Part shown: positions 1 through 16,892 of the stretch, one piece after another | How the letters are laid out: every line of letters begins with the position of its first letter | Position numbering within the stretch: the stretch's first letter is position 1 | DNA from: a virus | Length of the DNA: 28,023 nt | Virus record (IMG/VR): IMGVR_UViG_3300035698_005278 | Location: 1 to 28,023 of that record | Reading direction: 5' to 3' (one strand) | Notes under the pieces: generated by a model | Database searches by the model: none | Told to the model about the DNA's origin: nothing | The model's input: the letters and a program-made list of their open reading frames with translations, nothing else | Translations under genes and position numbers: made by a program

Positions 1-2864
1 CTGCTATCTCTATCACGAGAAATATACTGTGATCCAGATGTCCCACCTAATGTCAAATTCTGCACTGGAACAGCCGTACCAATACCAACTTTGCCATTCG
101 ACAACACAGTAAACGTGCCACCCAAGACATCGAATGGTCCCTGAACAGCAGCAGAGCTGGTAAAGTGTCCATGCGCTGCCTGGATCTCACCGGAGGTCAA
201 GGTAATAGAGTTTACTGATACTGTCCAAGCACCAGTCAAATCACGGGAACCGTCAACCAGCACATAGTTTGTATTGCCACCATCTAAGGCCAGGGTAGAA
301 GTATCTATCCTGATCTGGTCTTGGATCGTGGTTATTGCTGCGGTGGAAGTGTCAAGATTGTTCAGTCTAATTGTCAATGCAGCAGTTGAGGTATCCAGAT
401 TATCAGCTCTAGTAGTCAATGCAGCAGTTGAGGTATCTAAATTATCTATTCTCGTAGTCAAAGTGGCAGTACTAGAATTCAGATTGTTTATGCTTGTTTC
501 GGACGTGCTTCTGAATACATCGAAATCATCTAGTCTACTTTCTGTAGTAGATCGGAACACATCGAAATCATCTAGTCTAACCACAATAGCAGTTGTATCA
601 ACCGCAACAGCATCAAATTGAGTCGAGACATCGTACCCGTCTACAGTACCACTTACCGTAATATCACCCAAAACACTTAACTTTGCTGCAGTAGGGGCTA
701 CCCCAAATCCTATGTCACCAGAAGAACTCATGGAAAGCAAATCGCCTGTAAATGCTCCAGCAGAATCTAAACCGCCTATCTTGTAGAATCCCGCCTGAGT
801 ATAGACCTTATACCCACCATCTGTAGTATCAAACATAGACACTCCAGGATCGCCCGTCCCTGTGTCCTGAATGCCTATAGCTGCATTGCCCGAGTCTACC
901 ACCTCAAGCAAGTAGCCTGGAACAGTTGTTCCTATGCCGACATTCCCTGCAACATAGGCATCGCTACTAATCGTAACCGCATTAGTAAATGTGTTCAGAC
1001 CGCTAAAGGTCTGGGTACCTGTAAGCAACGCATAGTCTAAATTAGCTAGAGTGGCCGTATCGATTCTAATTTGATCTTGAATGGCAGTTATATTTGCAGT
1101 TGAAGTGTCTAAGTTATCAGCTCTAGTGGTTAATGTGGCCGTGCTAGTATCAAGATTATCCACGCGAACTCCAAGAGTTGTCGTGGAAGTAGTGAGAGAA
1201 GCCGTTGCAATATGCAGAGTATCTACCTCAGATCTTAGAGTAGATGTATCAACCCGAATCTGATCTTGGATTGTCACAATAGCAGCCGTTGAGGTATCGA
1301 GATTGTTCAGTCTAACCGTAAGCGCAGTAGTTGAGGTGTCTAGGTTATCCACTCTATCTTCCGACGTGCTACGAAATACGTCAAAGTCATCTAGTCTATC
1401 TTCTGAGGTACTACGGAACACATCAAAGTCATCTAATCTAACTATAATTGCAGCAGTAGATGTATCGAGATTATCGACTCTCGTTTCGGACGTACTACGA
1501 AACACATCAAAGTCATCTAATCTAACTATAATTGCAGCAGTGGAGGTATCGAGATTATCTATACGTGTTGTTAGAGTGGCAGTGGACGTATCAAGATTAT
1601 CCACTCTAGTTTCAGACGTGCTTCTGAACACATCAAAATCATCCAATCGAACCGTGATAGTAGCGGTGGAAGCGTCGAGGTTGTCGACTCTAGTTTCGGA
1701 CGTACTACGAAACACATCAAAGTCGTCCAGTCGAACTGTAATAGCAGCCGTAGATGTATCCAAGTTATTCAGCCTAACCGTAAGTGCAGCCGTGCTAGTA
1801 TCAAGATTATCAGCTCTAGTTCCAAGAGTAGTCGTTGATGTGGTCAATGAAGCCGTAGCAATATGCAGAGCGTTAACCTCAGATCTCAGAGTAGATGTAT
1901 CAACTCGAATCTGATCTTGGATTGTAACAATAGCAGCCGTGGAGGTATCGAGATTGTTCAATCGAATCGTCAATGCAGCGGTAGATGTGTCTAGGTTATC
2001 GACACGAGTTGTTAGCGTTGCGGTAGAGCTGTCGAGGTTGTCTGTTCTAGTTGTTAATGTTGCAGTGCTAGCATCAAGATTATCCACACGAACTCCAAGA
2101 GTTGTCGTGGAAGTAGTGAGAGAAGCCGTTGCAATATGCAGAGCGTTAACCTCAGATCTTAGAGTAGATGTATCAACTCTGATCTGGTCTTGGATCGTGG
2201 TTATTGCAGCAGTTGATGTGTCTAGGTTATCGACACGAGTTGTAAGCGTCGCAGTCGAAGAGTCGAGATTGTCTAGTCGAACGGTGATCGTTGCGGTCGA
2301 AGCGCGGAGGAGATCTACTTCAGTTCTTAGAGTTCCAGTATCAATCCGAATCTGCAATTGAACAGCAGCTATAGCGCCTGTGGATGCATCTAGGTTATCT
2401 AGTCTAAACTGAGGCTCGTAACCCAATAAGGTCACGCTAGCAGGGTTCAGGACATAGGTAGCTGAACTGCCAGCAATTGTTCTGATAAATTGAACTGACA
2501 ATACGTTCAAGCTTGAGATAGCTACCTTAGACGTACCATCAACGAAAGTATTCAGGATTGTTGTATCTCCAGAACTTGGAGAACTATTCAGAATCGAGCC
2601 ATCACCGAATTTAATCAGATCGAAATATCCAGTTGAAAAGAATCTTAGAGACGTACCAACAGCATAAGAAGAACCTGAACTCGGAACGACATCACCAAAA
2701 TTACTCGAATCATCCCCGTCATGTTTATGTGTATCCATAATGAAATAAACATCTTCAAAAACCTTGTTGATGAAAGGTTGATCCTTTATTCTATATGGCG
2801 GTTGTTCAGCATAAGCCGGACATAGAAATAAAAACAGTGCCATTAAAGTTAGGAATATTTTCAT
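1..2864 (-). CDS. Long coiled-coil tail fibre with signal peptide (C-terminus beyond left edge)
   Basis: The frame is open from the ATG at 2862-2864 to the left edge, at least 954 residues, with the C-terminus missing. Residues 1-19 form a classic signal peptide (basic start, Leu/Phe core, ending CPAYA). About 135 residues follow that may anchor the fibre to the tail. From about residue 155 to 610 the protein is built of 14-residue (two-heptad) repeats such as RLDNLDTSTAAITT, alternating with longer units containing IQDQIRVDTSTLRSEV. A beta segment with NVGIGTTVP follows, then a second coiled block (about 755-855), then another segment with GKVGIGTAVPVQ. GIGT-type segments are known from phage tail fibres and trimeric surface proteins. 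The start overlaps the stop of the upstream gene (ATGA), so translation is probably coupled. Likely role: trimeric host-recognition fibre. A C-terminal intramolecular chaperone may lie outside the window. The fibre call is secure; receptor specificity is unknown. Confidence 0.85.
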   Translation of the reverse strand, partial: MKIFLTLMALFLFLCPAYAEQPPYRIKDQPFINKVFEDVYFIMDTHKHDGDDSSNFGDVVPSSGSSYAVGTSLRFFSTGYFDLIKFGDGSILNSSPSSGDTTILNTFVDGTSKVAISSLNVLSVQFIRTIAGSSATYVLNPASVTLLGYEPQFRLDNLDASTGAIAAVQLQIRIDTGTLRTEVDLLRASTATITVRLDNLDSSTATLTTRVDNLDTSTAAITTIQDQIRVDTSTLRSEVNALHIATASLTTSTTTLGVRVDNLDASTATLTTRTDNLDSSTATLTTRVDNLDTSTAALTIRLNNLDTSTAAIVTIQDQIRVDTSTLRSEVNALHIATASLTTSTTTLGTRADNLDTSTAALTVRLNNLDTSTAAITVRLDDFDVFRSTSETRVDNLDASTATITVRLDDFDVFRSTSETRVDNLDTSTATLTTRIDNLDTSTAAIIVRLDDFDVFRSTSETRVDNLDTSTAAIIVRLDDFDVFRSTSEDRLDDFDVFRSTSEDRVDNLDTSTTALTVRLNNLDTSTAAIVTIQDQIRVDTSTLRSEVDTLHIATASLTTSTTTLGVRVDNLDTSTATLTTRADNLDTSTANITAIQDQIRIDTATLANLDYALLTGTQTFSGLNTFTNAVTISSDAYVAGNVGIGTTVPGYLLEVVDSGNAAIGIQDTGTGDPGVSMFDTTDGGYKVYTQAGFYKIGGLDSAGAFTGDLLSMSSSGDIGFGVAPTAAKLSVLGDITVSGTVDGYDVSTQFDAVAVDTTAIVVRLDDFDVFRSTTESRLDDFDVFRSTSETSINNLNSSTATLTTRIDNLDTSTAALTTRADNLDTSTAALTIRLNNLDTSTAAITTIQDQIRIDTSTLALDGGNTNYVLVDGSRDLTGAWTVSVNSITLTSGEIQAAHGHFTSSAAVQGPFDVLGGTFTVLSNGKVGIGTAVPVQNLTLGGTSGSQYISRDRDS
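290..2410 (-). repeat. Degenerate 42-bp tandem repeats in the fibre gene
   Basis: The DNA repeats with a 42-bp step (14 codons) and several variant units. At least seven units encode the motif DFDVFRSTSE (for example near 499, 541, 1362, 1401, 1486, 1612 and 1698). A longer composite unit of about 95 bp occurs almost identically at about 1159-1253 and 2083-2177, with a more diverged copy at about 1819-1903. Copies that are near-identical at the nucleotide level indicate recent internal duplication or recombination. Confidence 0.85.
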
Positions 2865-4537
2865 CGTCTACGCCTATTTTTGCCTCTTGTATAGGTATTT
2901 ACTCCGATACCAAGACTATCAGCAATCATCCCAAGTAGTATATTTGCAGACTCTGGATCATCCCTTAATTCCAGAAAATTGCTAACTGGCATTGGAACAG
3001 CCAAATTTCTAAGCTCTCCCAAGAAAGTAATCTTCTCTCTGCTAAAATCTTGACCCTTCAATAAATCCCTAGCGACACTAGCAGCCGGAGACAATTTCCC
3101 TTCAAAGAAATTGTAGATTACATCAGTCTTATCCATAGTGCCAAAATCGCCAGTATTGAGTTCCTTAACCTTTCCAGTAGTCGAACTTTTGTAGTGTCCG
3201 TTAATCAGTCTAGCTGCCAACGTTATTATAGATGACATACCACCGCTAACGTCAAAGGTTGTATTCTTGTATCGAATCTTCCCAAAATCAGAGCTTCTGG
3301 GGTCCATCTCCACATGTAAGTCTTTCGGTGCAACAGCTTTCGCAATAGCCAGAATTGCAGCAGTTCCGGAGATTATCTTCATCAAATTAATGGCAGCTCG
3401 TTTCCTAGCAAATTTACTCATCTTGTCGGTAGGATGCATCAGAAGTGTATCGATATTGCTCTTCAAATTTCTAGGAGAGAAAAAGACATTATTGACTATT
3501 TTGCCAACAGGTTCAAGTTTTCCAAGATGCCCTCTACCCGTCAAAGAGTTAACCAATTTCCCGATACTTTCAAGCTGGAATTGATCCGTGGTATCAACTC
3601 CCGATTTTTCCGCTATATCAAGATATATGTCAAACACGTCCGCTCTTGTCTTTTGAAGGAACGCCGTGTAAGCATTCTCACTAGCTTTGAAGAATTTACC
3701 GGCAATAGGTATTTTTTCGGGTAAACTCGTAGGAAATGCCTCTTCGGTTTTACCTACATCCAATTTAGCCTGTTTCATCTTATCGTAAGTCGGTCGTGAA
3801 ACTATATCGGCATTCAACTCGTCCATAACCTTCGCACCACCGAAGGTCCGATACATATCGACAAAACTCTTGCGGGCATTTTTCTGCCAGACACCTGGAT
3901 GAGTAAACAGAGTTTTCCAACCTTGCCTCAAGAGCGCACTGTTATCCAGCGTAGACTTCATGGCCTTGGCATAACCGGCAGCATTAGAAAGCAATTCCAG
4001 GGGATCCTTTATGGCCTCAACGGCAGTCTTCTTTTTTGCAGCTAACTTCAAATCGTTTGTATAGTTGTGGAAAGCCACTACGGCTCTTCCGTAATCTAAT
4101 CTATCCCCGCCTTGTTCCATCGCTGCTCTTTTTTCTGTCACGATCTTAGAGAGCTCAGCTATTTTGCCGGCTTCACCCATAGTCACTCCCATCTTTAGTT
4201 TTGTAGCTGCAAGATCTTCCAGGAAAGCATTCTTGTCGGTTTCAGTTAAAATCTCTGTCATTGTTTCAACTTTGGTTAACAAATCTCTCTTAGCAGCAGG
4301 CTTGATTCCAGTTATCTTCTTAGCCCAATTTATCATGCCTTGTTGCTGGTTCTTTAAGAGTAATTTGCTCTCGAATAGTGAGTTGACTTCGCGGGCGTTC
4401 ATCTCGCCAAGAAAAGCAGCGAAGTAATTCCTTCGAGCTTCACTGCTCATACTAGACAGTTTCCCTGGCTCAATTTCGCCAGACTTGATTTTATTCAAAA
4501 ATTCATCAGCTAGAGTTGACGGTAGACAATATTTCAT
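2861..4537 (-). CDS. Internal virion protein / polyvalent-protein C-terminal half (558 aa)
   Basis: This is a 558-residue, mostly helical, Lys-rich protein. The middle contains the segment LDNSALLRQGWKTLFTHPG, which I recognise from the C-terminal parts of large phage polyvalent or internal virion proteins. Around residues 385-400 there is a short hydrophobic stretch (ISGTAAILAIAKAV) that could insert into a membrane. The C-terminus is strongly basic (GKNRRRR). Its ATG follows the TAA of the 919-aa gene with no gap (TAAATG), and its own stop overlaps the fibre start. In related phages these regions can form one long protein, so it may be the detached second half of a polyprotein. Likely role: an ejected or internal head protein that works with its neighbour during DNA entry. 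The role is inferred from position and family resemblance; no catalytic motif is visible. Confidence 0.6.
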   Translation of the reverse strand: MKYCLPSTLADEFLNKIKSGEIEPGKLSSMSSEARRNYFAAFLGEMNAREVNSLFESKLLLKNQQQGMINWAKKITGIKPAAKRDLLTKVETMTEILTETDKNAFLEDLAATKLKMGVTMGEAGKIAELSKIVTEKRAAMEQGGDRLDYGRAVVAFHNYTNDLKLAAKKKTAVEAIKDPLELLSNAAGYAKAMKSTLDNSALLRQGWKTLFTHPGVWQKNARKSFVDMYRTFGGAKVMDELNADIVSRPTYDKMKQAKLDVGKTEEAFPTSLPEKIPIAGKFFKASENAYTAFLQKTRADVFDIYLDIAEKSGVDTTDQFQLESIGKLVNSLTGRGHLGKLEPVGKIVNNVFFSPRNLKSNIDTLLMHPTDKMSKFARKRAAINLMKIISGTAAILAIAKAVAPKDLHVEMDPRSSDFGKIRYKNTTFDVSGGMSSIITLAARLINGHYKSSTTGKVKELNTGDFGTMDKTDVIYNFFEGKLSPAASVARDLLKGQDFSREKITFLGELRNLAVPMPVSNFLELRDDPESANILLGMIADSLGIGVNTYTRGKNRRRR

Positions 4538-7297
4538 TTAGCACCTCAACGAATTCACAAAGGAAATCCATGTCTCTCGCTTTGGTCGAACTCGCTTTAT
4601 TTCAAATTCAATGTCTCGGACTGTATCTTTCTTTGCTTTTGCAAGATCTTTTTCACCTAGTCGCTTTAAGGCCATGTCTTCTCGGATCTTGGCAATATTT
4701 GCCATAGCGCCAGCAGGAGAGTTGGGATCACGTTCAGCTAAAGTTCGTATCCTCTGACCCATAGTTGTAGCCTCAGTCGCCAGACGTGAATTAATAGCTA
4801 AATCTCGTAATGTAGCTACGTCTCCTTCCTTGATAGCTCTACCTTCCACTGCAACAAACAAACTCTCTGGGATAACATTTGGAGGCGGTCTTTCTAGGCC
4901 CATAGCAATCCTTTTGGCTTGTTCATAATCCTGAGACATTATATCGTTGGCAGCAAGTGCCTGCTCTTTCATGTTGACTGTTTTGTATTCTGGTAAACCA
5001 CCGAAACCTTCGGTAAGATTCTTTGAGATTGCCATTGCTTCAACATTCTCAGATAATCCCCTTGTTTCAACTTTGCCTGTTCCAGCTATTGGAGGCAATT
5101 TTATTGGTCTTGTGGGTTGTTTTTTTGGTTGGGATTGCGCCTTGTTCCAGATGTCGGTGAGTTGGGCATCATTTTCTGGAGTAAACACAACATTAATTGT
5201 TTTCTCACCTAAATCTATTTTTTGATAATACCTATTGTTCCCATCACGAATTACTATCTTTCCATTTTTAAATCTTACCGCAACAGGATCATTAGGGTGT
5301 TTTGATTCTATTTTTCCAATTGCTTTTATAATTTGTTCTCGACTAACAGGAGTTGATACCATATCTATTGGAATAGTTTTCTCTGCGTACACAAACTCCT
5401 CCGCACTCTTGTACTTGCGGGCTTCTTGGATTAAAGATTGTTCGGGGGTTACTGCTGGGGTTGGTTCAACGGCTGGCCGTCCAGGCTCAATGCCCAGTCC
5501 TGGCCCTTCGACGGGTACTGCCTCTCCAACTCTTGCTTCGAGGAGATTGGGGTCCTGTGTTTTGGTAGGTAAGGTTTTCCATTCATAATTTGTTCCCTCA
5601 CTTTTATTATACTGGTCGATAAAGTTTTTGTCAAGGACGATTCTACTCTTCCCCGACTCTTTAGCCTTGAGGCTCATCAGGTCCGCTGCTTTCTCTCCTA
5701 CACCGAAACCAGATGAGAAGGTTATTCCCTTATGTTCTACCCCTTCACGGTTCGTGACAGTCAATCTACTCGCTTCTTCCTGAAAGGCTTTGAATCGATC
5801 CATCACCTCATACGGGCTACTCTTCTCGCCTTTCGGGTTGATAACTAGAGCAAACTCATCACCACCAAGTCTAACAGGCGAAAATCCATGCTTTTTAGCT
5901 AAGATCATAGCACCTTTCATCAAAGAATCAGCACCCGTATGCCCCAAATCTGTGTTTAATTGCTTCAAATTGTCAATATCCATGTTGATTAATGGAGTTT
6001 CAATCAGTTTTTTTCCATCAATCTTGCGTTTCGCATCAAAAACAAACTGTTTCTGCCATATTCCAAGATCTTTTGTAATAAATCTATCAGATATTTCAGA
6101 TTTAGCGTCCTGTAACTCTTGACTAGAAACCGCTTTCCCACCGGACTCCCTCTGGACTCTTTCGAGAGTTTTTAGAGATTTTGGAACCGGTACATCGAAA
6201 TCGTTAAGAATGTCTGTTTTGTCGAATTGGGTTGGGGTTTCACGTGGAACAATCGGTGCTTTATCTGGAAGAGGGGCCTGCTTAGGGGCGGGGACAGGTT
6301 GTCCCTTTTCTGAACCAAACGAAGTCACTGCTTGCACTCCACCACCCATAGCAGCACCAACCAGAGTCCCGAAAACAGCAGCAGAATCTACGCCTTGATC
6401 TAACGGTTGTTTTGTAGCTGCATTTTGAGCTATTTGCTCCTGAACGGACTGTGGAAGTTCTTCAAGAATACCCTCTTCAAATGCACCATATATAACCATT
6501 TTGACAAGATTCTTCTGTGCTTTTGGAGCAGTATATCCAGCAGTTAACAAAACATCAATATCGGCAATACCCAGTTTCTTTGCAATCTTACCGCCAAGAG
6601 CGCCTAACATGCCAGTGGCAGCCCCAGAAACTCCAGCAATAGCAGATTGTCGCCCAGACAGACGGCCAGATGGTTCATCCTGTCGGACCTGTTCAGCTAG
6701 ACTTCCTGCAGAAATAGCACCTTCACCAGCAGCAGCAGCAGCGACAGGAGTAATCTTTGAAGCAAGCTTTGGTAAAATTTTAGGAGCAAGTTTAAGCAGT
6801 CCTCGACCAGCAGCAGCAGCTCCTATCATGGATGGAGCAGACTCAGCAATAGCTTGAGTGATAACTGAAGGATTAGAAAGAACCGCGACAGCTTTATCTA
6901 TTATTCCTTTTGACTTACCAACTCTCGTGGAAGCTTCTTTCTGTGCTGGAGAATAAATTTCATTAAGCATCTCTTTGGATCTTTTAGGATCAAACCCTGC
7001 AACATCCTTCAGGAATTTGCCCGCTCTTCCGCCTGTCGTAATATCAGCTAATCCTACGTATGACTCGGGGAGGCTAATGGCACCCTTAAGCAATGAAACC
7101 CCTACATCTTGAGCCCTCTCTGTGTAAGTGGCCGTAGTTTCGGGTTTAACAGATTGAGCAGCCTGAGGCGAAAGTAATTCCTCCGTGCTCAGTATCTCTT
7201 GACTGGATTTCTTTCCAAACAAATCTTCTGAAGAGATTATTCCATTATCTTCTTTTGAAAATAACTCTTCTGTTGAAATTATTTTATTTTTTGCCAT
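4538..7297 (-). CDS. Large internal virion (polyvalent) protein with GGDEF diguanylate cyclase domain
   Basis: This is a 919-residue multidomain protein. Residues 1-45 hold three copies of a short acidic motif (IISTEELF, IISSEDLF, ILSTEELL). Residues 50-330 are Ala/Gly-rich helical segments typical of phage internal or ejection proteins. Residues about 405-560 are a GGDEF domain: D440 in the DIDNLK motif, N448 and D457 at the guanine-binding positions, GGDEF at 478-482, and a distal AKESGKSR segment. No RxxD inhibitory site precedes GGDEF. Residues about 640-705 resemble a ParB-type fold (IVIRDGNNRYY, then LGEKTI). Residues 740-860 match a conserved polyvalent-protein segment (ESLFVAVEGRAI, MGQRIRTLAERDP). 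GGDEF enzymes make c-di-GMP from two GTP. The gene overlaps its upstream neighbour by 19 bp and abuts the next gene. I infer a virion-carried, ejected enzyme. The domain calls are firm, the delivery route less so. Confidence 0.8.
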   Translation of the reverse strand: MAKNKIISTEELFSKEDNGIISSEDLFGKKSSQEILSTEELLSPQAAQSVKPETTATYTERAQDVGVSLLKGAISLPESYVGLADITTGGRAGKFLKDVAGFDPKRSKEMLNEIYSPAQKEASTRVGKSKGIIDKAVAVLSNPSVITQAIAESAPSMIGAAAAGRGLLKLAPKILPKLASKITPVAAAAAGEGAISAGSLAEQVRQDEPSGRLSGRQSAIAGVSGAATGMLGALGGKIAKKLGIADIDVLLTAGYTAPKAQKNLVKMVIYGAFEEGILEELPQSVQEQIAQNAATKQPLDQGVDSAAVFGTLVGAAMGGGVQAVTSFGSEKGQPVPAPKQAPLPDKAPIVPRETPTQFDKTDILNDFDVPVPKSLKTLERVQRESGGKAVSSQELQDAKSEISDRFITKDLGIWQKQFVFDAKRKIDGKKLIETPLINMDIDNLKQLNTDLGHTGADSLMKGAMILAKKHGFSPVRLGGDEFALVINPKGEKSSPYEVMDRFKAFQEEASRLTVTNREGVEHKGITFSSGFGVGEKAADLMSLKAKESGKSRIVLDKNFIDQYNKSEGTNYEWKTLPTKTQDPNLLEARVGEAVPVEGPGLGIEPGRPAVEPTPAVTPEQSLIQEARKYKSAEEFVYAEKTIPIDMVSTPVSREQIIKAIGKIESKHPNDPVAVRFKNGKIVIRDGNNRYYQKIDLGEKTINVVFTPENDAQLTDIWNKAQSQPKKQPTRPIKLPPIAGTGKVETRGLSENVEAMAISKNLTEGFGGLPEYKTVNMKEQALAANDIMSQDYEQAKRIAMGLERPPPNVIPESLFVAVEGRAIKEGDVATLRDLAINSRLATEATTMGQRIRTLAERDPNSPAGAMANIAKIREDMALKRLGEKDLAKAKKDTVRDIEFEIKRVRPKRETWISFVNSLRC

Positions 7298-8157
7298 TGA
7301 TTGTTCCCGATATATTTATAGGTTCCCTTACCTGGAACTGTTTGAGTTTCTTCTTTGGTATATCCAAATTTGTCTTTCTCACTAGTACTTGCGTTACCTT
7401 TAAAAAGACCACCAACCCCTTTTGCTGCAGATCCAATCATCTTAACTCCCTGTGCTGCAGATCCGAGCATATCAGCGAACCAGCTAGACTCTTCTTCCTC
7501 TGGCATTTCTTTAGCTCTAAATCGATCAATCTGCTCTTGAGGATATCCAGCCTCTTCAAAAGCAGCAGCAACTTCTTCTCTCAGAGAATCCTCATCAACT
7601 CCACCCTTTGCCTTCAGATACTCTGTATAAGCTTTATTTGCTCTGCTATTCAAAGCTGTCTGATTCTTGTCTGTTTCGCTTTTATCAAACCCAGCTTTCT
7701 GTCTCTCAGTCTGTCCTTCCAATCTTTTGTCTTGTCTTTCCTGTTGACCAGTAGCAGAAATCCTAGTCCTAGCGACTGCAAGCGTTTGTTTTAGTTGTTC
7801 CTCAGGTTGCTTTGTGCCAACAACAAGATTTGCACTAGGATAAGCAGCAGCTAGCATTGGAGTAATTTCAGTCATCTTTGGTGTTGCCGGTTTCCCGAAT
7901 CTAGGTTGATTAGCAGCGATTCCACTCGTTATAGGTTGCTGTTGCGGAGTTGTGCCGGCAGTAAGACCAGCAGCCCCAGGACCAGCAGAAGGCATCCTGA
8001 ATGATCCAGACTCATTTATCTCATCAACGGCCTGTTGATATGATTGAGGCGTAAAAAGACTTGGATTGTTTTGTAAAAGATTATCGAGTCTATCGAATTG
8101 ATCCTTTTTCTTGTCGTACTCAAACTTTCTACGCGCTGTTCTCATTCCTGTTGGCAT
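7279..8157 (-). CDS. Internal virion protein, 292 aa
   Basis: This is a 292-residue protein with a basic N-terminus, a Pro/Gln/Ala-rich linker (about residues 55-100), a charged Gln/Lys/Arg helical stretch (about 125-185) and a Gly/Ala amphipathic segment (SAAQGVKMIGSAAKGVGGLF) that could touch membranes. The C-terminus ends in a short Tyr/Trp-containing module (GTYKYIGNNQWQKIK). AAGGAG lies 6 bases before the ATG. It sits between the 403-aa and 919-aa internal proteins and overlaps the latter by 19 bp. Position and composition fit the middle member of a three- or four-protein ejection set like T7 gp14-gp15-gp16. I see no direct similarity to those proteins, so the call rests on context. Confidence 0.55.
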   Translation of the reverse strand: MPTGMRTARRKFEYDKKKDQFDRLDNLLQNNPSLFTPQSYQQAVDEINESGSFRMPSAGPGAAGLTAGTTPQQQPITSGIAANQPRFGKPATPKMTEITPMLAAAYPSANLVVGTKQPEEQLKQTLAVARTRISATGQQERQDKRLEGQTERQKAGFDKSETDKNQTALNSRANKAYTEYLKAKGGVDEDSLREEVAAAFEEAGYPQEQIDRFRAKEMPEEEESSWFADMLGSAAQGVKMIGSAAKGVGGLFKGNASTSEKDKFGYTKEETQTVPGKGTYKYIGNNQWQKIK

Positions 8158-8172
8158 ATCTTTCTCCTTTTA

Positions 8173-9384
8173 TTAAGACCAAATTGATGCAATGGATGCT
8201 ATCCCACTTCCTCCACCAAAATCACTCACAGTAGGCAGAAGCAAATCAGGAAGTCTGTTTGTCATAGACTCCCAGAAACCAGGACCTTCAATTTGCTTCT
8301 GTTTTAGATCTAATTCCCTAGAACTCAATTCATTCTTGAATTTCAATTCAGCAGCAGATTTTTCTTTTGCCCAATCAATCTGCTGGGCTTGCAAGAATTT
8401 CCGAAGATCAAATTCTCCACCAGTCATACTCTCTTTACTCTCTATCTCAAGTCCAGTCAACATGGTCTGGAATAGATTATCAATAAGATTCTGTTTCTCT
8501 GTATTAGCTAACTGCATACCCTGTAACCGTCGATCAGCTTCAGCCGATGCCATTTGATACATCATTCCCTTCTCATCTTGCTGCAACTTAGCAAACGAAG
8601 GATAGGCTTGAGCTAACATCATCTCTTCAACGGGACCACGCTCGTATCTATCTTTATAAGCTTGTCGCACTTCTTTTTCTTTCTCTGCTTGTCTACCCAA
8701 CTGAGACATAGCCAATTCGCTACGAGCTCCAGCTTTCTGTGCGAGTCCTTGTCCCTGAGCTCCTGCCATAGCAGCCGTGATAGGCTCAGAAATCCTACCT
8801 GCACCACTGATCCCGTACTCTTCGCCGGTCATCTTAATATCAGCTATAGATCGAGCTATTTCACGATCAATATCTTTTAGAGTCTGTTGCAAAATCCCAG
8901 ATTCAGTCTGCTTAATAGCCTCTTCAGCCGTGCTAGGAGTCTGTAGCAATTTTAAGTAATCCTGGAATTGTCCCTCAGATTTTTCGCCTACACCCTTAGC
9001 AAGATCGGCATATTGCTGAGGTATTGCATTAGGATTAAGTCCTTCAGCATATTTGCGATATTCTTCTAAAGGTTGGTTTATTCCTGAATAATCAGTTTGA
9101 CCACCTGAAAGGACACCTTTCAAAAGGTTCCCGTAGAATTCATCGGGGGAAGTCCTATCAAATGAACCGTCAGCAGGTCCTATATATTTAGGAGCAGCAG
9201 GAATTGTAGTTATTTGTTCTCCTCCAAGTCCAGGTCCACCATAAGCAGTCAATCCAGACATAAACGTTGGCTCTTCATTCCCTTTCCGCATACCAACAAC
9301 ATTCCCATTATTATCAAGTATATTTGTATAGGGACTTGAACCTGTCGTCTGAACTTGTCTCTGAACACTGCTTGGTAGAATCAT
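8173..9384 (-). CDS. Internal virion protein, 403 aa
   Basis: This is a 403-residue protein with a Gly/Pro-rich N-terminal third that is likely disordered (about residues 40-85). Long helical, Gln/Glu/Lys-rich stretches follow from about residue 120 to 355. A small-residue segment (ISEPITAAMAGAQGQGLAQ) lies near the centre, and the C-terminal end is hydrophobic (LPDLLLPTV, then GIASIASIWS). A strong Shine-Dalgarno (GGGAGGG) precedes the ATG. It directly follows the tail nozzle gene and precedes two further internal-type proteins, the usual place of ejection proteins in short-tailed phages. No enzyme motif was found. The internal virion role is inferred from gene order and the helical, low-complexity make-up. 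Confidence 0.55.
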   Translation of the reverse strand: MILPSSVQRQVQTTGSSPYTNILDNNGNVVGMRKGNEEPTFMSGLTAYGGPGLGGEQITTIPAAPKYIGPADGSFDRTSPDEFYGNLLKGVLSGGQTDYSGINQPLEEYRKYAEGLNPNAIPQQYADLAKGVGEKSEGQFQDYLKLLQTPSTAEEAIKQTESGILQQTLKDIDREIARSIADIKMTGEEYGISGAGRISEPITAAMAGAQGQGLAQKAGARSELAMSQLGRQAEKEKEVRQAYKDRYERGPVEEMMLAQAYPSFAKLQQDEKGMMYQMASAEADRRLQGMQLANTEKQNLIDNLFQTMLTGLEIESKESMTGGEFDLRKFLQAQQIDWAKEKSAAELKFKNELSSRELDLKQKQIEGPGFWESMTNRLPDLLLPTVSDFGGGSGIASIASIWS

Positions 9385-9396
9385 AATTCCCTCCCT

Positions 9397-12300
9397 TTAT
9401 TCCTGTGGTGCAGGATCACTCGTATAGTATAAATTCCCATTCAATAGTCGCCATGCATTGATACTAGATATAGACCACTTGAAACTTATGTATTTCCCCT
9501 GTTTCAACTTAGAAACACTGAATGGTAATTTGAAATTCTGGTATCCAGTCTTGGTATCCATCGCATAATCTGCCATAGATATAGCATTCCCATCCTCATT
9601 CACATAATATTCAGTCTCTAACGTTGCATCGCTATTGATCGTTGTCATGAACAATTCATCGAAAGTCGTATACGTATCAGCTCCAGATACTGGGAATGTT
9701 TTAGTCTTGTAATACGCATCAATCGCCGATCCATCATCATCTGTCCCGTATTCAAGCTGATAAATCCCATTTGAATCTCCGAAATAAAACGTACCAGAAT
9801 AATTCACAATTCCATCGACATGGATTCCACTATATCTCTGCCATTGCCGATTCTTATCGTAAACCAAAACTTTGTTGTTTGAAGTCGAAAAAACTGCAAC
9901 AGCTAACCAATATCGATTCTCAATGTAATCAGCAAAAGTCCGAATTGCACTACCTTCACTGAAATTAACCGTAATGCTATGAAGTATCACCGAATGAGTC
10001 GAGACTGAACCTTTATAAAAATCTGCTGAGACTGTGATATATTGACCCACTTCGATACTAGGAGTCTGTCCATCAACAACGGATTGGCTAGCTAGATAGG
10101 TAGAACTATCGTAAATATCTATACTGGAATCAGTATCAACAAACAATGTGTAATCTATCGATCCACCACTCAGAGTATCGTCAAGTCCAATTGTTCCCCA
10201 TTCGTTGAATTTAGTATTCGCATCAAATGATCTTGTCGTAAATGTTGAATAGAATACCATCGTTGCAAAATAAACTTGAAATGTTCCATCGTAAGATCCT
10301 AGTGTATAATTCGATCCTCCTGTGGTAAAACTACTCGTATAGAGTAGGACACTCGACGAATAATCAACCGTAGCTAATTCAGGTGCGTAGAATTCTGCGT
10401 GAGGAATATAAGTTATAGTCGTTCCACCATTGCCATAATACCCTGTCGCAAAAGTAGCTCCACCGTGTGCAAAATAACTGGAACCGCCACCGCCTCCTCC
10501 TTGTCCGGTTGTATTACAACATCCACCACCTCCTCCCCCATAATAACCACCGCCACCACCTCCTTGAGAGGGAGATTCCCCTCCCACACCCAAAATACCA
10601 CTTTTACCAGCGCTTTGTCCGCCAACTCCCCCAGAAGATTGAGTTCCACCTCCTCCACCACCATCGGGATAATTAGAAGCAAACCCTCCTTTTTCCCCAT
10701 TAGGTGGCGTTCCAAATCCAGCAGCCCCACCCGTAGAAAGGAATCTTAAATCTGAACTTGGAGGCCAACAAGCATTTCCGTAACCACCACCCCCAGCAGC
10801 AACAAGAATACGATCTGTCCAAGTTGATCCATTTATCCTAATATCAGAAGATCCTCCACCACCTGAATTTGATCCGCCTACTCCCACGTAACCCACACTA
10901 GTGGAATCGCCTCCCCCATTCCAACCACCAGGAGCAAGGTGATCACTTACTGACTGACCAACCTCTCCAGCTCCACCCACAAATACCGACAATATATCTC
11001 CAGGAGTAACTGTCATAGTTGCGGTTACAAGTGCTCCTGATCCTGTCCTTAATGCATAAGATCCGACACCCCCAGAACCTCCAGCCAATTCTATAGTTAT
11101 GCTACTTACACCTATTGGAACTACAAAAGGCTCAGACGAACCTGAGTAATCAAAATTTTGAGTGGTTATTGATGCTACATTCGTTATAGTCGTATGCATC
11201 ACAAACCAATATGTATTCCCAGCTGCTAAACGCTTATCAGTCATAGTGGATTGACTGAAATAATAATCACTAGTGTATGTGGTCAAATTCCCATTACTGT
11301 TCGTATTAGATGAAATCTTAGTCGTCGAAGTATCAAACACAACCTCAGCCGGGCAAGTAGCCCCCGTATGAAGCGTTAACCAAGAATCATACCCTTCAAC
11401 AACGTTACTCTTATACTGGAACCCCATAGTAACCTTATCTAACTGAAACGTGTCCGTAGCAATGAACATAACAGCGTAAGCACCAGTAGAAGATGAATCA
11501 TAAGTCGAATACATGCTATCAGAAGTCCCACCACTTCTCGTCGCTCCAGTAGCAAGAAACACAGAAACCTGAGTCGTCGAACCAGAAAATAATCCGATAT
11601 CACCAGGACTCGTAGTCGTATCAATCGCAACACCAAGCGTCCCAGAAGCCCAATCAGCAGCACTCGTCTGGACCCACTGCCGATTGTTCAAATCCCCCTG
11701 TTCAATCGTCTCCATATAGGTATCGATATTCTGACTGATAGGATAATACTTCTCACCATCAAATTCGTAAATAATCCGATCATTCCCAAACCACCGTAAC
11801 ATCCCATCACAATTCTTAATCGAATCGGGATAATTGCATCCAACCGTATCGCTATACTCCCGACTCTTGAAATTGCTCTTACGACTACCAAAAATAGCCC
11901 CAAATGAACGTTGCTTGTACCACATAAGCTTATCATCATAAGTAGCGTATAGACCCGTCAAAATGTCATCTAAGGCCCCTTGAATCTGCAGTCTGGATGG
12001 ATCTGTATCAATAGAATCAGCAGCAAGAGTAAAATTGCTACCATCTAAATATTCTGAAACATAAATCGTTCGCTCATCACCAGAAATACCAGCCATCCAT
12101 AACCGACCTTTATGCGTTACCAGGAATTTAGGCTTATAAGTCCCCACAACATAAACATCAGATGTATCCCAATATTTCAAACCATCAGTAGTGTTACAGA
12201 AATATAATTCATCTCCTAACCCTGTAACATAAGTCGTCACATCAGGATCAACAGTCGAAATCGTAATGGTAAACGATTCACTGCCAAGAGTAGCTTTCAA

Positions 12301-12582
12301 AACATTGCTAGACTGAGTAATGAAATACTTCGAGCCATTCGCAATATAGAAACTGAATAGATTCTTCGACGATTCAGTGGAAAACTGAATATACCCCGCA
12401 CGAGGCTTCAAGCCCGATCCATCATCAGTCACTATATTCTCAGCGTCAGGAGTCTGATCCTTAAGAAATAATGCGTTATCATCAGTATTTAATCCACCAA
12501 ATTCACTGATCCTCGCTACGGCTGAATATATAGCAACCGTAGTGAAAACAAAGAGTGAAGTTAAATACAGGAATTTTTTCAT
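9397..12582 (-). CDS. Tail nozzle / DNA-stabilisation-type protein with signal peptide and inserted glycine-rich domain
   Basis: This is a 1061-residue protein. Residues 1 to about 23 are signal-peptide-like (MKKFLYLTSLFVF core, possible cleavage after AVA). The segment FGGLNTDDNALFL, then DAENIVTDDGSGLKPRAGY, is the typical start of podovirus tail nozzle or stabilisation proteins (P22 gp10 / T7 gp12-like beta-propellers). Repeating beta blades follow. Residues about 487-727 are a glycine-rich domain with many GGGGG runs and IELAGGSGG and ILVAAGGGGYG motifs, a module known from phage adhesins and other surface proteins. Blade-like sequence resumes after it (NRYWLAVAVFS, YDKNRQWQRY). The ATG overlaps the adaptor stop (TAATG), as expected for adaptor-nozzle partners. 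Likely role: lower tail tube with a surface-exposed insertion. The combination with a signal peptide is odd and is covered in the findings. Confidence 0.75.
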   Translation of the reverse strand: MKKFLYLTSLFVFTTVAIYSAVARISEFGGLNTDDNALFLKDQTPDAENIVTDDGSGLKPRAGYIQFSTESSKNLFSFYIANGSKYFITQSSNVLKATLGSESFTITISTVDPDVTTYVTGLGDELYFCNTTDGLKYWDTSDVYVVGTYKPKFLVTHKGRLWMAGISGDERTIYVSEYLDGSNFTLAADSIDTDPSRLQIQGALDDILTGLYATYDDKLMWYKQRSFGAIFGSRKSNFKSREYSDTVGCNYPDSIKNCDGMLRWFGNDRIIYEFDGEKYYPISQNIDTYMETIEQGDLNNRQWVQTSAADWASGTLGVAIDTTTSPGDIGLFSGSTTQVSVFLATGATRSGGTSDSMYSTYDSSSTGAYAVMFIATDTFQLDKVTMGFQYKSNVVEGYDSWLTLHTGATCPAEVVFDTSTTKISSNTNSNGNLTTYTSDYYFSQSTMTDKRLAAGNTYWFVMHTTITNVASITTQNFDYSGSSEPFVVPIGVSSITIELAGGSGGVGSYALRTGSGALVTATMTVTPGDILSVFVGGAGEVGQSVSDHLAPGGWNGGGDSTSVGYVGVGGSNSGGGGSSDIRINGSTWTDRILVAAGGGGYGNACWPPSSDLRFLSTGGAAGFGTPPNGEKGGFASNYPDGGGGGGTQSSGGVGGQSAGKSGILGVGGESPSQGGGGGGYYGGGGGGCCNTTGQGGGGGGSSYFAHGGATFATGYYGNGGTTITYIPHAEFYAPELATVDYSSSVLLYTSSFTTGGSNYTLGSYDGTFQVYFATMVFYSTFTTRSFDANTKFNEWGTIGLDDTLSGGSIDYTLFVDTDSSIDIYDSSTYLASQSVVDGQTPSIEVGQYITVSADFYKGSVSTHSVILHSITVNFSEGSAIRTFADYIENRYWLAVAVFSTSNNKVLVYDKNRQWQRYSGIHVDGIVNYSGTFYFGDSNGIYQLEYGTDDDGSAIDAYYKTKTFPVSGADTYTTFDELFMTTINSDATLETEYYVNEDGNAISMADYAMDTKTGYQNFKLPFSVSKLKQGKYISFKWSISSINAWRLLNGNLYYTSDPAPQE

Positions 12583-13322
12583 TATCTCGGTGCCACCTGT
12601 ACACTATTGGAATAATTTACCATAGACCCTAACCTAGCTCGCATCACAACAATCTCATTGGTATAGAGCTGATAATAAGTCTGGAATTCCGTAAGCTTCG
12701 ATTCAATCCGCTTAATCTGTGCCGAAACATGATAAACAATCGCTTGATGATAAGAAGTCAAATTGCTCTTAGAATCAAACGGGATATCAGTCGTTACCGA
12801 TACAGAACTAACCGTACTGTAATATTGAATAGTTACAGTACCAGTCGTTAGAGTCGTTGCTATAGGAATGTAACTTATAGTGAGATTCTCAGAAGATGGA
12901 CCAGCACCAACCTGAGAAATATAGTATTCCGATGGAGTACCAGTCTGAGTCTTCCACTCAACATTATCACTATAAAGCTTGCGAATAGAAGTTTCCTCTA
13001 TCTCTATGATATTGCCTGAAGTATCTTTCAACTCAACTTTCTCTACGGCAATTAAATCACTCGGGAGATCGTAATAAGTAGTGTTGACAGAAAGAGCATA
13101 ACTGGTAGTCTTCTCAGCTAACCAAGTCGCATTAACAATCTCTCGCTGTGCAGTATTGGCAAACGTAGCCAACACTGCGTCGCTATATCTATACCTGGAA
13201 GAATCAGCAGGATTATCATTAACATTAATTCTTACCTGATCACAAACCTCAGATAAAGTAAGAGAATAACCCGCTGAAACACAAACAAAAAGAAGGAGAA
13301 TAGATAGGATATATTTTTTCAT
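12582..13322 (-). CDS. Head-tail adaptor (gp4/gp11-like) with signal peptide
   Basis: This is a 246-residue protein. I place the start at the ATG at 13320-13322, because AGGTGG lies 5 bases before it; an in-frame GTG at 13331 has no ribosome site. Residues 1-20 are a clear signal peptide (MKKYILSILLLFVCVSAGYS). Mature residues then read TLSEVCDQVR, SSRYRYSDAVLATFANTAQREI, YDLPSDLIAVEKVEL and, near the end, helices with HVSAQIKRIE. This pattern (disordered start, RYSDA helix, then a beta strand with LP.D) is that of short-tailed phage adaptor proteins that attach the tail to the portal. It precedes the nozzle gene with a one-base overlap. A signal peptide on an adaptor is unexpected, since adaptors normally join the portal in the cytoplasm. 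The family call is moderately sure. Confidence 0.65.
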   Translation of the reverse strand: MKKYILSILLLFVCVSAGYSLTLSEVCDQVRINVNDNPADSSRYRYSDAVLATFANTAQREIVNATWLAEKTTSYALSVNTTYYDLPSDLIAVEKVELKDTSGNIIEIEETSIRKLYSDNVEWKTQTGTPSEYYISQVGAGPSSENLTISYIPIATTLTTGTVTIQYYSTVSSVSVTTDIPFDSKSNLTSYHQAIVYHVSAQIKRIESKLTEFQTYYQLYTNEIVVMRARLGSMVNYSNSVQVAPR

Positions 13323-13331
13323 ATATCCCAC

Positions 13332-13781
13332 CTATTTCACATACTCTTCCCAAATATAAGCGCCTTCAGTCCCCAAATACCCACTATCATCCCAAACACC
13401 CCACAATTTACCCTGATAATTGGTTTCCCAAGTATCTTCATCACTTGTTAAACTAAACGATGATAAATGAATACCAACCGTAGTCCCATAGAAGTCATAG
13501 GCATCAGAAGCATTTATCTGCAATGCAGCGTGAGATGACATATTCACAATTATACGAGTACGCCACCGGTTAGTCGTCCCAAGGTTTGTGTTAAGAATAG
13601 CAGACGAAATATCAACCGACGTACTAGTCGATGGAGATACCATCCGTTCCCTGACACTAGACCCACCCTGAATACTCACTGGATCGACACTTCCCCGTCT
13701 ATCTACACCAGCATTGCCAGCAGAGCCAGCAATACCAGTGCAAACAAAGAAAAGAGAAAATAATATTGAAATATAACCCAT
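13332..13781 (-). CDS. Small exported tail-module protein of unknown function
   Basis: This is a 149-residue protein with a hydrophobic N-terminus (residues 1-21, GYISILFSLFFVCTGIAG, small residues SAGNA after it) that looks like a signal peptide, though its first residues lack the usual Lys or Arg. The mature part is Ser/Thr-rich with predicted beta strands (SFSLTSDEDTWETNYQGKLW, GVWDDSGYLG). The ATG has AAGGGGG about 6 bases upstream. It lies between another signal-peptide protein and the adaptor gene, and is probably a structural or virion-surface protein. I do not recognise a family. The Cys in the N-terminal segment is not in a proper lipobox, so a lipoprotein is unlikely. Confidence 0.6.
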   Translation of the reverse strand: MGYISILFSLFFVCTGIAGSAGNAGVDRRGSVDPVSIQGGSSVRERMVSPSTSTSVDISSAILNTNLGTTNRWRTRIIVNMSSHAALQINASDAYDFYGTTVGIHLSSFSLTSDEDTWETNYQGKLWGVWDDSGYLGTEGAYIWEEYVK

Positions 13782-13795
13782 ATTAAACCCCCTTG

Positions 13796-14644
13796 TTATG
13801 GTTGTGGAGTAAAGTATGTCTGGATATACCTCACATTGTAGTCATTGGTACCAGTTCCATCAGTTGCGAAGTTAATTGTGTTGTAAGTCGCATCTTCTAC
13901 ATAAGTAGTCGTAACGGCCCCAGCTTCATCAACATGGTAAATATCGCCAGTAGCTGCAATATCATTAGCAAGCCCAATATCATCATTCGTTCCGATGAAA
14001 ATTGCAACAGTCGCATCAGGAGTCCCAAGACCAATTGTAATATTAGAAATGGTTATACTTGAGATAGAAGCCCAAGCAATATTTCCCAAACCAGCAGTAG
14101 CATTAGAAGTTGAAACTAAGGAAATATATTCATTAGTTGAAATTCCAACAGAATTAATTCCCTCAACATAACAAGTTCCAGTAACTGTCATCGTAGTTTG
14201 ACCAGTTGATCCAGTCGCAACAGTAGCCAAAATAACAATATTCCTCGGAACAGGTGACTGAGTGAAATCCGAAGTAACATAGGTCGTTCCACCAGCAACT
14301 AACGTTGTGGTCGAAATGAATGCACCAGCAAAGATAATATCATGATCTTTAGCAGGTAGATCAACAAATGATTCAAGATGTCGAGCTACTCCACCAAGAG
14401 TAATCATTCCATTATCAGCAAGATACAATTTCAACCAATTAGCAGTCGGTGATCCTAATTCTCCAACTCTGGAATGATTCGTGATATGTCCGCCAGACGA
14501 TACTCTATAAGCATAAGTAGAAATGTCCAAAGAATAGTTAGCGTCAATCGTAAGTCTGTCACTCTCAGTATCAGCATTTCCTGCAAAAGCAAAATTGCCT
14601 AGTAGGAATACAGATAGTGAAGCGAGTATTAATTTTTTCAACAT
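13796..14644 (-). CDS. Exported beta-rich structural protein (282 aa)
   Basis: The best start is the ATG at 14642-14644, because GGAGGTG lies 5 bases upstream; the longer open frame to 14707 adds unlikely residues overlapping the upstream gene. From this start the protein opens with a textbook signal peptide (MLKKLILASLSVF, ending NFAFA), cleaved near residue 21. The remainder is Thr/Gly/Val-rich and beta-strand-like (TTLVAGGTTYVTSDF, SSITISNITIGLG). It ends in IQTYFTPQP. Such sequences occur in phage head or tail surface proteins. It follows the capsid block and opens the tail block. I do not recognise a specific family. Confidence 0.6.
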   Translation of the reverse strand: MLKKLILASLSVFLLGNFAFAGNADTESDRLTIDANYSLDISTYAYRVSSGGHITNHSRVGELGSPTANWLKLYLADNGMITLGGVARHLESFVDLPAKDHDIIFAGAFISTTTLVAGGTTYVTSDFTQSPVPRNIVILATVATGSTGQTTMTVTGTCYVEGINSVGISTNEYISLVSTSNATAGLGNIAWASISSITISNITIGLGTPDATVAIFIGTNDDIGLANDIAATGDIYHVDEAGAVTTTYVEDATYNTINFATDGTGTNDYNVRYIQTYFTPQP

Positions 14645-14663
14645 CGATACACCTCCAAATATA

Positions 14664-15170
14664 TTAGTCCGGTCGTATGTATTCAAGATTACCAGCATCA
14701 GGATCATCAGGCCGAAGTTGTCGACGGATGTTTTTCAGACGATGCGCCTTCTCTAAATACGCCTGAGAAAACTCAGTTTTTGCCATTTCATTAGCTGCTT
14801 TCCTGAAATCAGGATTAAGCGAACCATCTTCAAATTGCTTCAACCGAGTCATCTTTCGAGGTATCATCATCTTCTGGACTTGCTCTATCAAATTAGTCTC
14901 ATCACGTTCAAGATCAGCTTTTTCAGCTTCACTCAAAGGTTCAGGTTGACTACCAGCTAGAACTCGTTCCATTTTTGTTATCTGTCGACTATTCCGACTT
15001 TTACCACCACTTTGAAGCTCTTGAGAAATACTCTTCTTCATCTCTCTTGAAAATTCAGGCGATTCACCAGCTTCATCTCTCTTAGATGTGTTGATGTCTC
15101 TCTGCATATTCATTCTTTCTTCAAGTGGTGCGATTCTCCGCATTGGTTTCCCTCTTGGATCGGCACTCAT
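14664..15170 (-). CDS. Charged helical virion-morphogenesis protein of unknown function (168 aa)
   Basis: This is a 168-residue, highly charged protein without signal peptide or membrane segment. The N-terminal half is rich in Arg, Ser and Lys and probably disordered. The second half is helical (SEAEKADLERDETNLIEQVQ, AYLEKAHRLKNIRRQL). AAGGAG lies 7 bases before the ATG. It sits directly downstream of the major capsid gene and upstream of the exported tail-module proteins. Proteins of this place and make-up are often head-completion or assembly factors, but I see no family motif, so the role is left open. The region just upstream carries a partial duplication of its own start site. Confidence 0.55.
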   Translation of the reverse strand: MSADPRGKPMRRIAPLEERMNMQRDINTSKRDEAGESPEFSREMKKSISQELQSGGKSRNSRQITKMERVLAGSQPEPLSEAEKADLERDETNLIEQVQKMMIPRKMTRLKQFEDGSLNPDFRKAANEMAKTEFSQAYLEKAHRLKNIRRQLRPDDPDAGNLEYIRPD

Positions 15171-15239
15171 AAAGGCACTCCTTTATTCTTAATTTTAAAA
15201 AAATCGGCACTCAGAACTAAGGCACTCTATTTTTTCTAT

Positions 15240-16139
15240 TTAGGCAACTTCAAACCCTAACAACCACTCCCAACCAATAGACCCATAACCATACAAAGAC
15301 GACACCAAATATTTCGGTGTGCGTGCTTCAAAGTCACTAGCCTTCTCGAATGCAATTGGATCAACTTCATTCCAAACCTGGAATTGTTTCATCAATTCAG
15401 GATCAATCAAGCCCCAGTTGTTCGTATCATACATCCTAACATCAGTAACAGTCTGAAACTTCCCGTAATGAACGTTGAAGTCATTGTTGTCTGTATACGG
15501 ACGCTGCTTAGACTTAACAACCTCTTCAAACGGATCTTCAAGATCAATCCCGCCAGCCAACATGCGAGGCATGATGTCTAAGGTATTGTCAAGATTGCTA
15601 ACGAACTTACGCATATAAATGCGTGCAGCTGATAGCGAAACTCCGTTGAATGCAGTCGTCAACTTATTGCCCTGACTGGATCCACCAACATCAGAGGTAT
15701 GCGCAGTATGAGACAACGCAAGCCCGTCCCGGGTCGTGTACGCACCGTTGAACATGTTGTTGAACCAATAGACCGCATCAGAAGCTATACGACGCTTCAT
15801 ACTCAGCCCTAACATCTCGGATGCTTGTTTCGCAACCCGAAGTTGATCAAACCTCATCCATCGATACTCAATCTTCAATCCAAGCAAATACTCTTTCGCC
15901 GTGATTGTGTTTTTGTACCCTTCCTTCCAATCCGCATACTGCAGATCTCCGGTATACTCTGGAACCGTATCCATATCACCAATCTCAAGATAAGTCTCAG
16001 TCTGTTTATTCGATTTTTCAACTTTATAGAAAAAGTCTCTCCTCGAATTAACTTGACGACCAAGCCCCAAATGAAATGAGCGCTTTGCAATCGGCTCTAG
16101 CGTATTTTGAAACGCTTTTAAACCTACAACTCTAGCCAT
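15240..16139 (-). CDS. Major capsid protein (HK97-fold type)
   Basis: This is a 299-residue protein. Its pattern is that of phage major head proteins: an N-terminal stretch with RDFFYKVEKSNKQTETYLEI, a central region with WFNNMFNGAYTTRDGLALSHTAHT, which resembles Mu gpT-like capsid proteins, then a basic helix (SLSAARIYMRKFVSN) and a C-terminal domain ending GWEWLLGFEVA. Length is normal for the class. A strong Shine-Dalgarno (GGAGGTGG) precedes the ATG. The gene order portal, scaffold, decoration-like protein, capsid protein supports the call. There is no cleaved N-terminal delta domain inside the protein; the separate scaffold gene upstream fits this. Confidence 0.82.
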   Translation of the reverse strand: MARVVGLKAFQNTLEPIAKRSFHLGLGRQVNSRRDFFYKVEKSNKQTETYLEIGDMDTVPEYTGDLQYADWKEGYKNTITAKEYLLGLKIEYRWMRFDQLRVAKQASEMLGLSMKRRIASDAVYWFNNMFNGAYTTRDGLALSHTAHTSDVGGSSQGNKLTTAFNGVSLSAARIYMRKFVSNLDNTLDIMPRMLAGGIDLEDPFEEVVKSKQRPYTDNNDFNVHYGKFQTVTDVRMYDTNNWGLIDPELMKQFQVWNEVDPIAFEKASDFEARTPKYLVSSLYGYGSIGWEWLLGFEVA

Positions 16140-16154
16140 TTATACCACCTCCTA

Positions 16155-16892
16155 TTAGTCTACTGGATTCAAAACGCCATCATGTATCACAATATCAGCC
16201 TCAAACCTTACGTCCTTCAAAGAATTGAGACCAGTCAATGCAGCATGTTTCGTCGGATCCATTTGCTCAGTTATTCCAGCTCTACGAATACGTAGATCAA
16301 TGATAGCCCCAGCAACTGCACCAGCAGCAGCCTGACTAGTCAATTTTCCATCAGCACTCAAACCAAGTAACTTATGAAACCTTGGCAAGATCTTGATGAA
16401 ATATGAAGTCGTATCAAGATCAGTCGTGAACGCTGCTTTCAATGTACATGAACCAGAAGCAGAAGCAGTCATATAATTCGTCTGACCAGCTCCCGTCCCC
16501 GAAACAACGTAAATGAACGAACCATCAATGTCGTCTTCCAATGAAGTAACTGTCATGGTCGTACTATTCACCGCTTGTGTACAGACAATCGCATTTGCAG
16601 CAGTTAGATCGAACTCGATCTTAATGATCGGAGGACAATTAATCAACTCAACCGGTGCCGTAACAAACTTAGTTCCAGCCATCAACGTATCGCCAACCTC
16701 AGAGTAATCATGAAGATTCTCCAGGATTCCGAAAGAATCGGCAATCGCACTCGTACCACTAGCAGTAACTAACATCCCATTATCCGTGCCGGCAGACGCG
16801 CCTATCTTCAGCAACGAATCGCCAGAAATATCCGCACCAGCTCCGTAAATAGGAAGGTCGTAATGCCTTCTTTGTACCTTACTTACTCTCAT
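16155..16892 (-). CDS. Head decoration-like structural protein (245 aa)
   Basis: This is a 245-residue protein rich in Ala, Thr and Ser, with many beta strands and no signal peptide. Segments such as SFGILENLHDYSEVGDTLMAGT and FVTAPVELINCPP suggest a small beta-barrel fold as in capsid-stabilising or decoration proteins, and the C-terminal part (RRAGITEQMDPTKHAALTGL) may reach the capsid surface. It starts after AAGGAGG and ends 15 bp before the capsid gene, the usual position of decoration or capsid-assembly partners. I do not see a definite family motif, so the call is contextual. Confidence 0.55.
   Translation of the reverse strand: MRVSKVQRRHYDLPIYGAGADISGDSLLKIGASAGTDNGMLVTASGTSAIADSFGILENLHDYSEVGDTLMAGTKFVTAPVELINCPPIIKIEFDLTAANAIVCTQAVNSTTMTVTSLEDDIDGSFIYVVSGTGAGQTNYMTASASGSCTLKAAFTTDLDTTSYFIKILPRFHKLLGLSADGKLTSQAAAGAVAGAIIDLRIRRAGITEQMDPTKHAALTGLNSLKDVRFEADIVIHDGVLNPVD

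Follow-up and report, generated by a model that had tools for sequence, protein, structure and literature searches.

Tailed phages are held to assemble entirely in the cytoplasm, and the locus described here raises the question of why a tailed phage would carry secretion signals on the proteins of its tail. The window (the whole stretch of DNA analyzed, a 28,023-base virus record) is a single long gene block on the minus strand, for which 28 gene N-termini were listed. We asked whether its N-terminal leaders are genuine signal peptides, how widely they occur among relatives, and how a virion could be built from such parts.

N-terminal leaders in the window

N-termini were scored with a simple von Heijne-type rule, based on an uncharged hydrophobic core, a positive n-region and small residues at -3/-1; this rule accepted six textbook leaders and rejected TrxA. 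The original prediction had placed Sec-type leaders on five proteins, all of which are present. They are carried by a fibre-like repeat protein of 954 aa (3–2864; leader 2808–2864, 19 aa, MKIFLTLMALFLFLCPAYA, mature start EQPPYRIKD), a nozzle-type tail protein of 1061 aa (9397–12582; leader 12514–12582, 23 aa, MKKFLYLTSLFVFTTVAIYSAVA, then RISEF), a head-to-tail adaptor of 246 aa (12582–13322; leader 13263–13322, 20 aa, MKKYILSILLLFVCVSAGYS, then LTLSE), a 149-aa protein of unassigned fold (13332–13781; leader 13710–13781, MGYISILFSLFFVCTGIAGSAGNA, then GVD) and a 282-aa protein, the first exported gene past the capsid block (13796–14644; leader 14582–14644, 21 aa, MLKKLILASLSVFLLGNFAFA, then GNA). 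The fibre gene contains a coiled-coil repeat region and runs past the contig end. The 149-aa and 282-aa proteins would be virion components, judging from the position of their genes. The adaptor starts at the ATG at 13322, and a GTG at 13331 falls within its Shine-Dalgarno region.

Four of these proteins (fibre, nozzle, adaptor and 282-aa protein) passed the strict rule, and the early Lys reported for four of the five leaders was found as well. The features of Sec/SPase I substrates, namely a positive n-region, a hydrophobic core of 8–15 residues and small -3/-1 residues, are present throughout except in the 149-aa protein, whose leader is the weakest of the five: its core is strongly hydrophobic (2.8), but it has no positive residue and failed the strict rule. 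Homologues of this protein occur in two other loci. No lipobox Cys stands at +1 in any of the five leaders, as read directly, and none was flagged by the rule. The same rule called a leader in 0.6% of shuffled N-termini and in 0.3–1.4% of stretches starting from an internal Met.

None of the other 23 genes of the window scores as having a leader, in agreement with the claim that capsid, portal, scaffold, terminase and ejection-type proteins lack one. This leaderless set includes the large terminase (22235–23857), the portal (18849–20990), an acidic scaffold-like protein (17482–18297), a conserved, decoration-like pre-capsid protein of 245 aa (16155–16892), the major capsid protein (15240–16139) and a 168-aa protein, p168 (14664–15170). 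It also includes four ejection-type proteins of 403 aa (8173–9384), 292 aa (7279–8157), 919 aa with a GGDEF domain (4538–7297) and 558 aa (2861–4537). The exported segment is bounded on one side by p168, which is kept in the clade described below, and on the other by the 403-aa ejection-type protein.

A clade of relatives and its outgroups

Scans with single proteins (MCP, terL) found no relatives, and a terL alignment of six rows proved too diverse. A three-row terminase alignment retrieved 80 loci and led to IMGVR_UViG_3300025087_000179 (hereafter G010), which is homologous to the window in capsid, portal, scaffold, decoration, adaptor and terminase. In G010, leaders are found on the protein following the capsid block, the adaptor, the nozzle, a tail-collar-like fibre and two more proteins past the ejection genes, while head and ejection proteins have none; its partition is thus that of the window. 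Further searches with capsid alignments recovered some 35 loci from more than 25 metagenomes, represented by 25 loci at less than 95% capsid identity.

The same split between head and outer proteins was observed in more than 25 divergent relatives from many metagenomes. In the 25 representatives, the stretch from p168 to the ejection genes is filled by leader-bearing genes wherever the contig extends there; one locus (L165) has extra leaderless genes inserted in it. Across the clade, leaders were found on 82 of the 88 genes of this segment. The slot of the 282-aa protein holds an exported protein in every clade member extending that far. The small exported proteins may belong to the tail, the fibres or the decoration of the virion. 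HHalign gave no support for the first exported proteins being homologues of capsid cement proteins.

Clade counts followed one rule and were limited to proteins with a known start of the conserved domain. A leader was present on 18 of 19 adaptors and 18 of 19 nozzles (36/38 scorable cases), compared with 1/149 in portal, scaffold, Zn-ribbon protein, decoration, capsid, p168, ejection and terL proteins together, that single case being a false call. Both misses, one adaptor and one nozzle, belong to L166, where a hydrophobic leader can be recognized by eye. In the adaptor of L131 and the nozzle of L127 the leader is readable yet broken in frame, probably by sequencing errors. The Fisher p-value for the partition (6e-35) is overstated, since clade members share ancestry and are not independent. 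Three held-out loci (L211, L212 and L215), fetched after the pattern had been fixed, all fit as far as their contigs go, and L212 has two adaptor genes with a leader on each. The suggestion, made from the window, that the leaders go with an exposed position on the virion is supported across the whole clade. In an MCP tree, every leader-bearing phage lies on the same side of one 99/99 branch of length 0.97. The window is a long branch in this tree. Searches for a host found no MCP relatives in GTDB genomes, and the one tRNA gene found had no match.

Fibres of different clade members are not homologous, and every one of them carries a leader. In many exported fibres the mature N-terminus bears a common motif, close to xPPYxxKDxxxxxNFRxxY, whose first residue lies at +1 to +3 relative to the predicted cleavage site; the window fibre has its motif in common with exported proteins of G048, G054 and G052. 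This motif may be the end that docks on the virion, by analogy with SU10, whose fibres attach to the adaptor through their N-termini (PMC9509320). It was not found in cytosolic outgroup fibres.

In kind and order of proteins (portal, SU10-like adaptor, nozzle, head-packed ejection proteins), the clade resembles SU10/Pam1-type short-tailed phages (PMC9509320). Outside the clade, however, the adaptor has no leader in the relatives surveyed. Among 30 adaptor matches from terminase-related phages, only that of G010 has one, and the rest mostly begin 0–13 residues ahead of the domain; in the non-clade loci fetched, leaders were found on 0/19 adaptors and 0/9 nozzles. In cultured Pseudomonas phage H66 the adaptor homologue is likewise leaderless: it begins at exactly the residue following the G010 leader, and it is annotated as a virion protein by mass spectrometry. 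The nearest GenBank capsids (28–34% identity to that of L130) are those of Alcaligenes phage vB_Af_QDWS535, the Manatee Spring podoviruses, DSL-LC04 and Pelagibacter phage HTVC023P, which have a homologous capsid, a GroES gene near the portal and a similar gene order. Unlike the clade, the first three have no tail leaders, whereas HTVC023P has two leader-bearing proteins of unassigned role between capsid and adaptor, with adaptor and nozzle leaderless. We also looked for homologues that begin further upstream with an unrelated, non-hydrophobic stretch, a finding that would have spoken against export: none occurs within the clade, and non-clade homologues simply have no extension. Taken at the level of sequence, these data point to a group of short-tailed phages, not recognized before, with a secretion signal on nearly every protein outside the head and none on those that build or fill it.

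Predicted cleavage sites, paired cysteines and alternative roles for the leaders

The window adaptor matches PF24175 (SU10_adaptor) at 2.9e-20 and 74 bits (cut-off 27) over residues 22–227, from profile position 2, and the adaptors of four clade relatives match it at 83–105 bits. An AF2 model built from 16 clade sequences (pLDDT 85, the leader part being less certain) was matched by Foldseek to the solved adaptors of cyanophage A4, GP4, KHP30 and SU10 with E-values of 1.6e-10 to 5e-8, and also to Pa223. An SU10-like adaptor is expected to have no N-terminal leader; the window and the intact clade members do have one. The domain begins at residue 21–24 in all five members tested (21–22 in the window), right behind the predicted cut. 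The adaptors of G010 and L211 still have a Met at +1 of the mature part, as would be expected if a leader had been placed ahead of an older start codon. Leaders are less conserved than mature parts (26% versus 34% identity) and retain their chemistry: most have Lys/Arg early on, followed by a neutral core and by small residues close to the cleavage point, and acidic residues are almost absent.

The clade nozzle profile matches L004 (71 bits) and L003 (57 bits), both annotated as phage stabilization protein; its AF2 model (mean pLDDT 46) is too poor to judge a beta-propeller or nozzle fold. Of 19 variable Cys columns in the nozzle, 14 fall into seven disjoint, perfectly co-varying pairs with no singletons. 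Kinship reduces the number of independent events behind these pairs, yet the pairs differ in their distribution. Co-varying Cys columns are scarce or absent elsewhere: 2/15 in terL, which has as many Cys, 0/10 in the portal, 0/4 in decoration and 0/2 in the capsid. The pairing is the pattern expected of disulfides formed outside the cytoplasm and is evidence independent of the leaders. No paired Cys were found in the adaptor, so the disulfide evidence comes from the nozzle. Periplasmic glycosylation was considered and rejected, N-x-S/T sites (418 versus 375 expected) not being clearly enriched and an acidic sequon lying below expectation.

Export and cleavage of the outer proteins are thus well supported by the domain start at the cut, the paired Cys, the leaders on non-homologous fibres and the clean outgroups. 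The original prediction had left open whether tail parts are exported or held in the membrane; it is Sec export with cleavage that these observations favor. A possible reading, though one we consider doubtful, is that export and cleavage serve mainly folding, giving beta-rich, Cys-rich outer parts access to disulfides and periplasmic chaperones, and that late joining of head and tail is a by-product. The paired nozzle Cys fit this idea, as do a Cys content of 1.21% in exported mature proteins versus 0.61% in head proteins and a Cys content in clade nozzles twice that of outgroup nozzles. However, the adaptor is largely helical and nearly free of Cys and still always bears a leader, and paired Cys are few in nozzles from the branch to which the window belongs.

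Uncleaved segments could instead tether tail parts to the inner membrane, for an assembly platform or for release. A hydrophobic segment with a positive n-region is also compatible with a signal anchor, cleavage here being a prediction from sequence, but the small -3/-1 residues with hardly any acidic ones, the start of fibre motif and adaptor domain immediately past the cut, and the lack of any such extension on adaptors of cytosolic relatives make anchoring improbable, including the role in release proposed earlier. Slightly less probable still is surface display, by which an exported subset of tail proteins would cover receptors against superinfection while internal initiation supplied a leaderless virion form. 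Export as such and the Met at the cut site in G010 and L211 are compatible with it, but direct reading of the window excluded dual starts, no ATG, GTG or TTG standing at the mature start of adaptor or nozzle, and the adaptor is no obvious receptor blocker. That the leaders are meaningless hydrophobic N-termini, produced by gene calling or chance, can be dismissed despite the weak 149-aa leader: as first argued from the window, chance is no match, 0.3–1.4% per N-terminus being expected against the 36/38 seen, and the partition recurs in the divergent relatives and the held-out loci.

A proposed two-compartment model of virion assembly

The presence of leaders outside the head and their absence from head proteins suggest that the cell membrane lies between the place where heads are built and the place where tail parts mature, the two being joined only at the end. 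In our preferred reading, to which we assign a probability of roughly 0.7, the leaders are working Sec signal peptides cleaved by SPase I and the outer parts are exported; tails would then join DNA-filled heads at lysis. Head parts, portal, terminase and head-packed proteins would remain cytoplasmic. Adaptor, nozzle, fibres and the rest of the outer set would be exported, trimmed and partly disulfide-bonded beyond the inner membrane; both placements have good support from the partition of leaders. In a two-membrane host, the exported location would be the periplasm. It is somewhat more probable than not that the clade's virion is built in just this way, from filled heads in the cytoplasm and Sec-exported, cleaved, disulfide-bonded outer tail parts, all in the periplasm, united only when the inner membrane opens at lysis. 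Split-compartment assembly appears to be the best explanation left.

No phage-encoded signal peptidase was found in 21 records, so the host's enzyme must serve. Adaptors assemble on the portal ring. The contact between the two is described in PMC9509320. With the portal kept inside, the adaptor would not assemble, and the exported tail parts would wait as subunits beyond the inner membrane. P22 heads without a tail lose their DNA, hence some other component, a temporary plug, would be required to keep the filled heads closed. A holin would then open the inner membrane, the two pools would mix, and the tail would build sequentially on the portal; P22-type tails can assemble on finished heads. 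A holin step is expected since both endolysins found (M23 in G010, Amidase_2 in G047) are leaderless.

Filamentous phages are tail-less, have no packaged head and are extruded from living cells. As in the outer proteins of the clade, their virion proteins carry Sec signal peptides, in connection with assembly at the membrane (Inoviridae; PMC4823517). The clade, by contrast, has a virion with a tail, and only its outer parts carry leaders. Assembly of the inovirus type was rejected for the window on the grounds of its leaderless head proteins and its terminase, portal and tailed-phage capsid.

The lineage is otherwise one of ordinary short-tailed phages, and export of the outer parts would be the feature without a known counterpart. 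No prior report of exported tail proteins was found in the open-access literature searched, which takes in few subscription journals and no bioRxiv preprints. The absence of a signal peptide has been used as support for the phage origin of a protein (e.g., PMC6199706), and proteins of this clade may therefore have been misread as bacterial. If the model is true, a clade with secreted outer parts breaks the rule of cytoplasm-only assembly: lysis could time tail attachment, tail-less heads would need some undescribed means of retaining their DNA, and virion proteins would gain the use of disulfides. The clade would then offer a testable system for what sets the timing of tail-head joining.

Leaders in other phages

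Predicted Sec-type signal peptides (leaders) were also found in other phages. A more distant phage, L122 (G012; 2036-14842), carries them on four fibre-like proteins, and its two adaptors and nozzle-like protein have none; this phage is a partial form of the leader trait. On the L121 (G038) contig, which stops before reaching any adaptor, two leader-bearing proteins of 355 and 377 aa (12054-14297) directly follow the capsid gene. The capsid-adaptor interval of the cultured Pelagibacter phage HTVC023P (L186, 21448-23523) likewise holds two proteins with leaders, of unassigned function.

Further leader-bearing proteins

The clade member L212 has two adaptor genes side by side, each with a leader (12140-13599). 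Judging from leaders, predicted export in some members goes far beyond the tail, as in L198 (G046), where several more proteins carry them (731-16118), one being lipoprotein-like with collagen-type repeats.

Other features of the minus-strand genes

The nozzle (9397-12582, minus strand) contains a glycine-rich insert at residues 497-708 that matches ALK_LTK_GRD, and the fibre shows long imperfect repeats (3-2400, minus strand), such as LDTSTAALTTRLDN. A tandem GroES of 197 aa (21618-22211, minus strand) combines two Cpn10 stretches in a single protein; GroES genes lie close to the portal in relatives and outgroups.

One ejection-type protein (4538-7297, minus strand) matches PF00990 at residues 436-531, a GGDEF (diguanylate cyclase) domain, with a score of 24.6 bits against a cut-off of 23.8 and an unbroken RLGGDEF motif. 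The domain is absent from seven large ejection proteins of relatives. If the GGDEF-bearing protein enters the cell with the DNA, it could increase c-di-GMP there.
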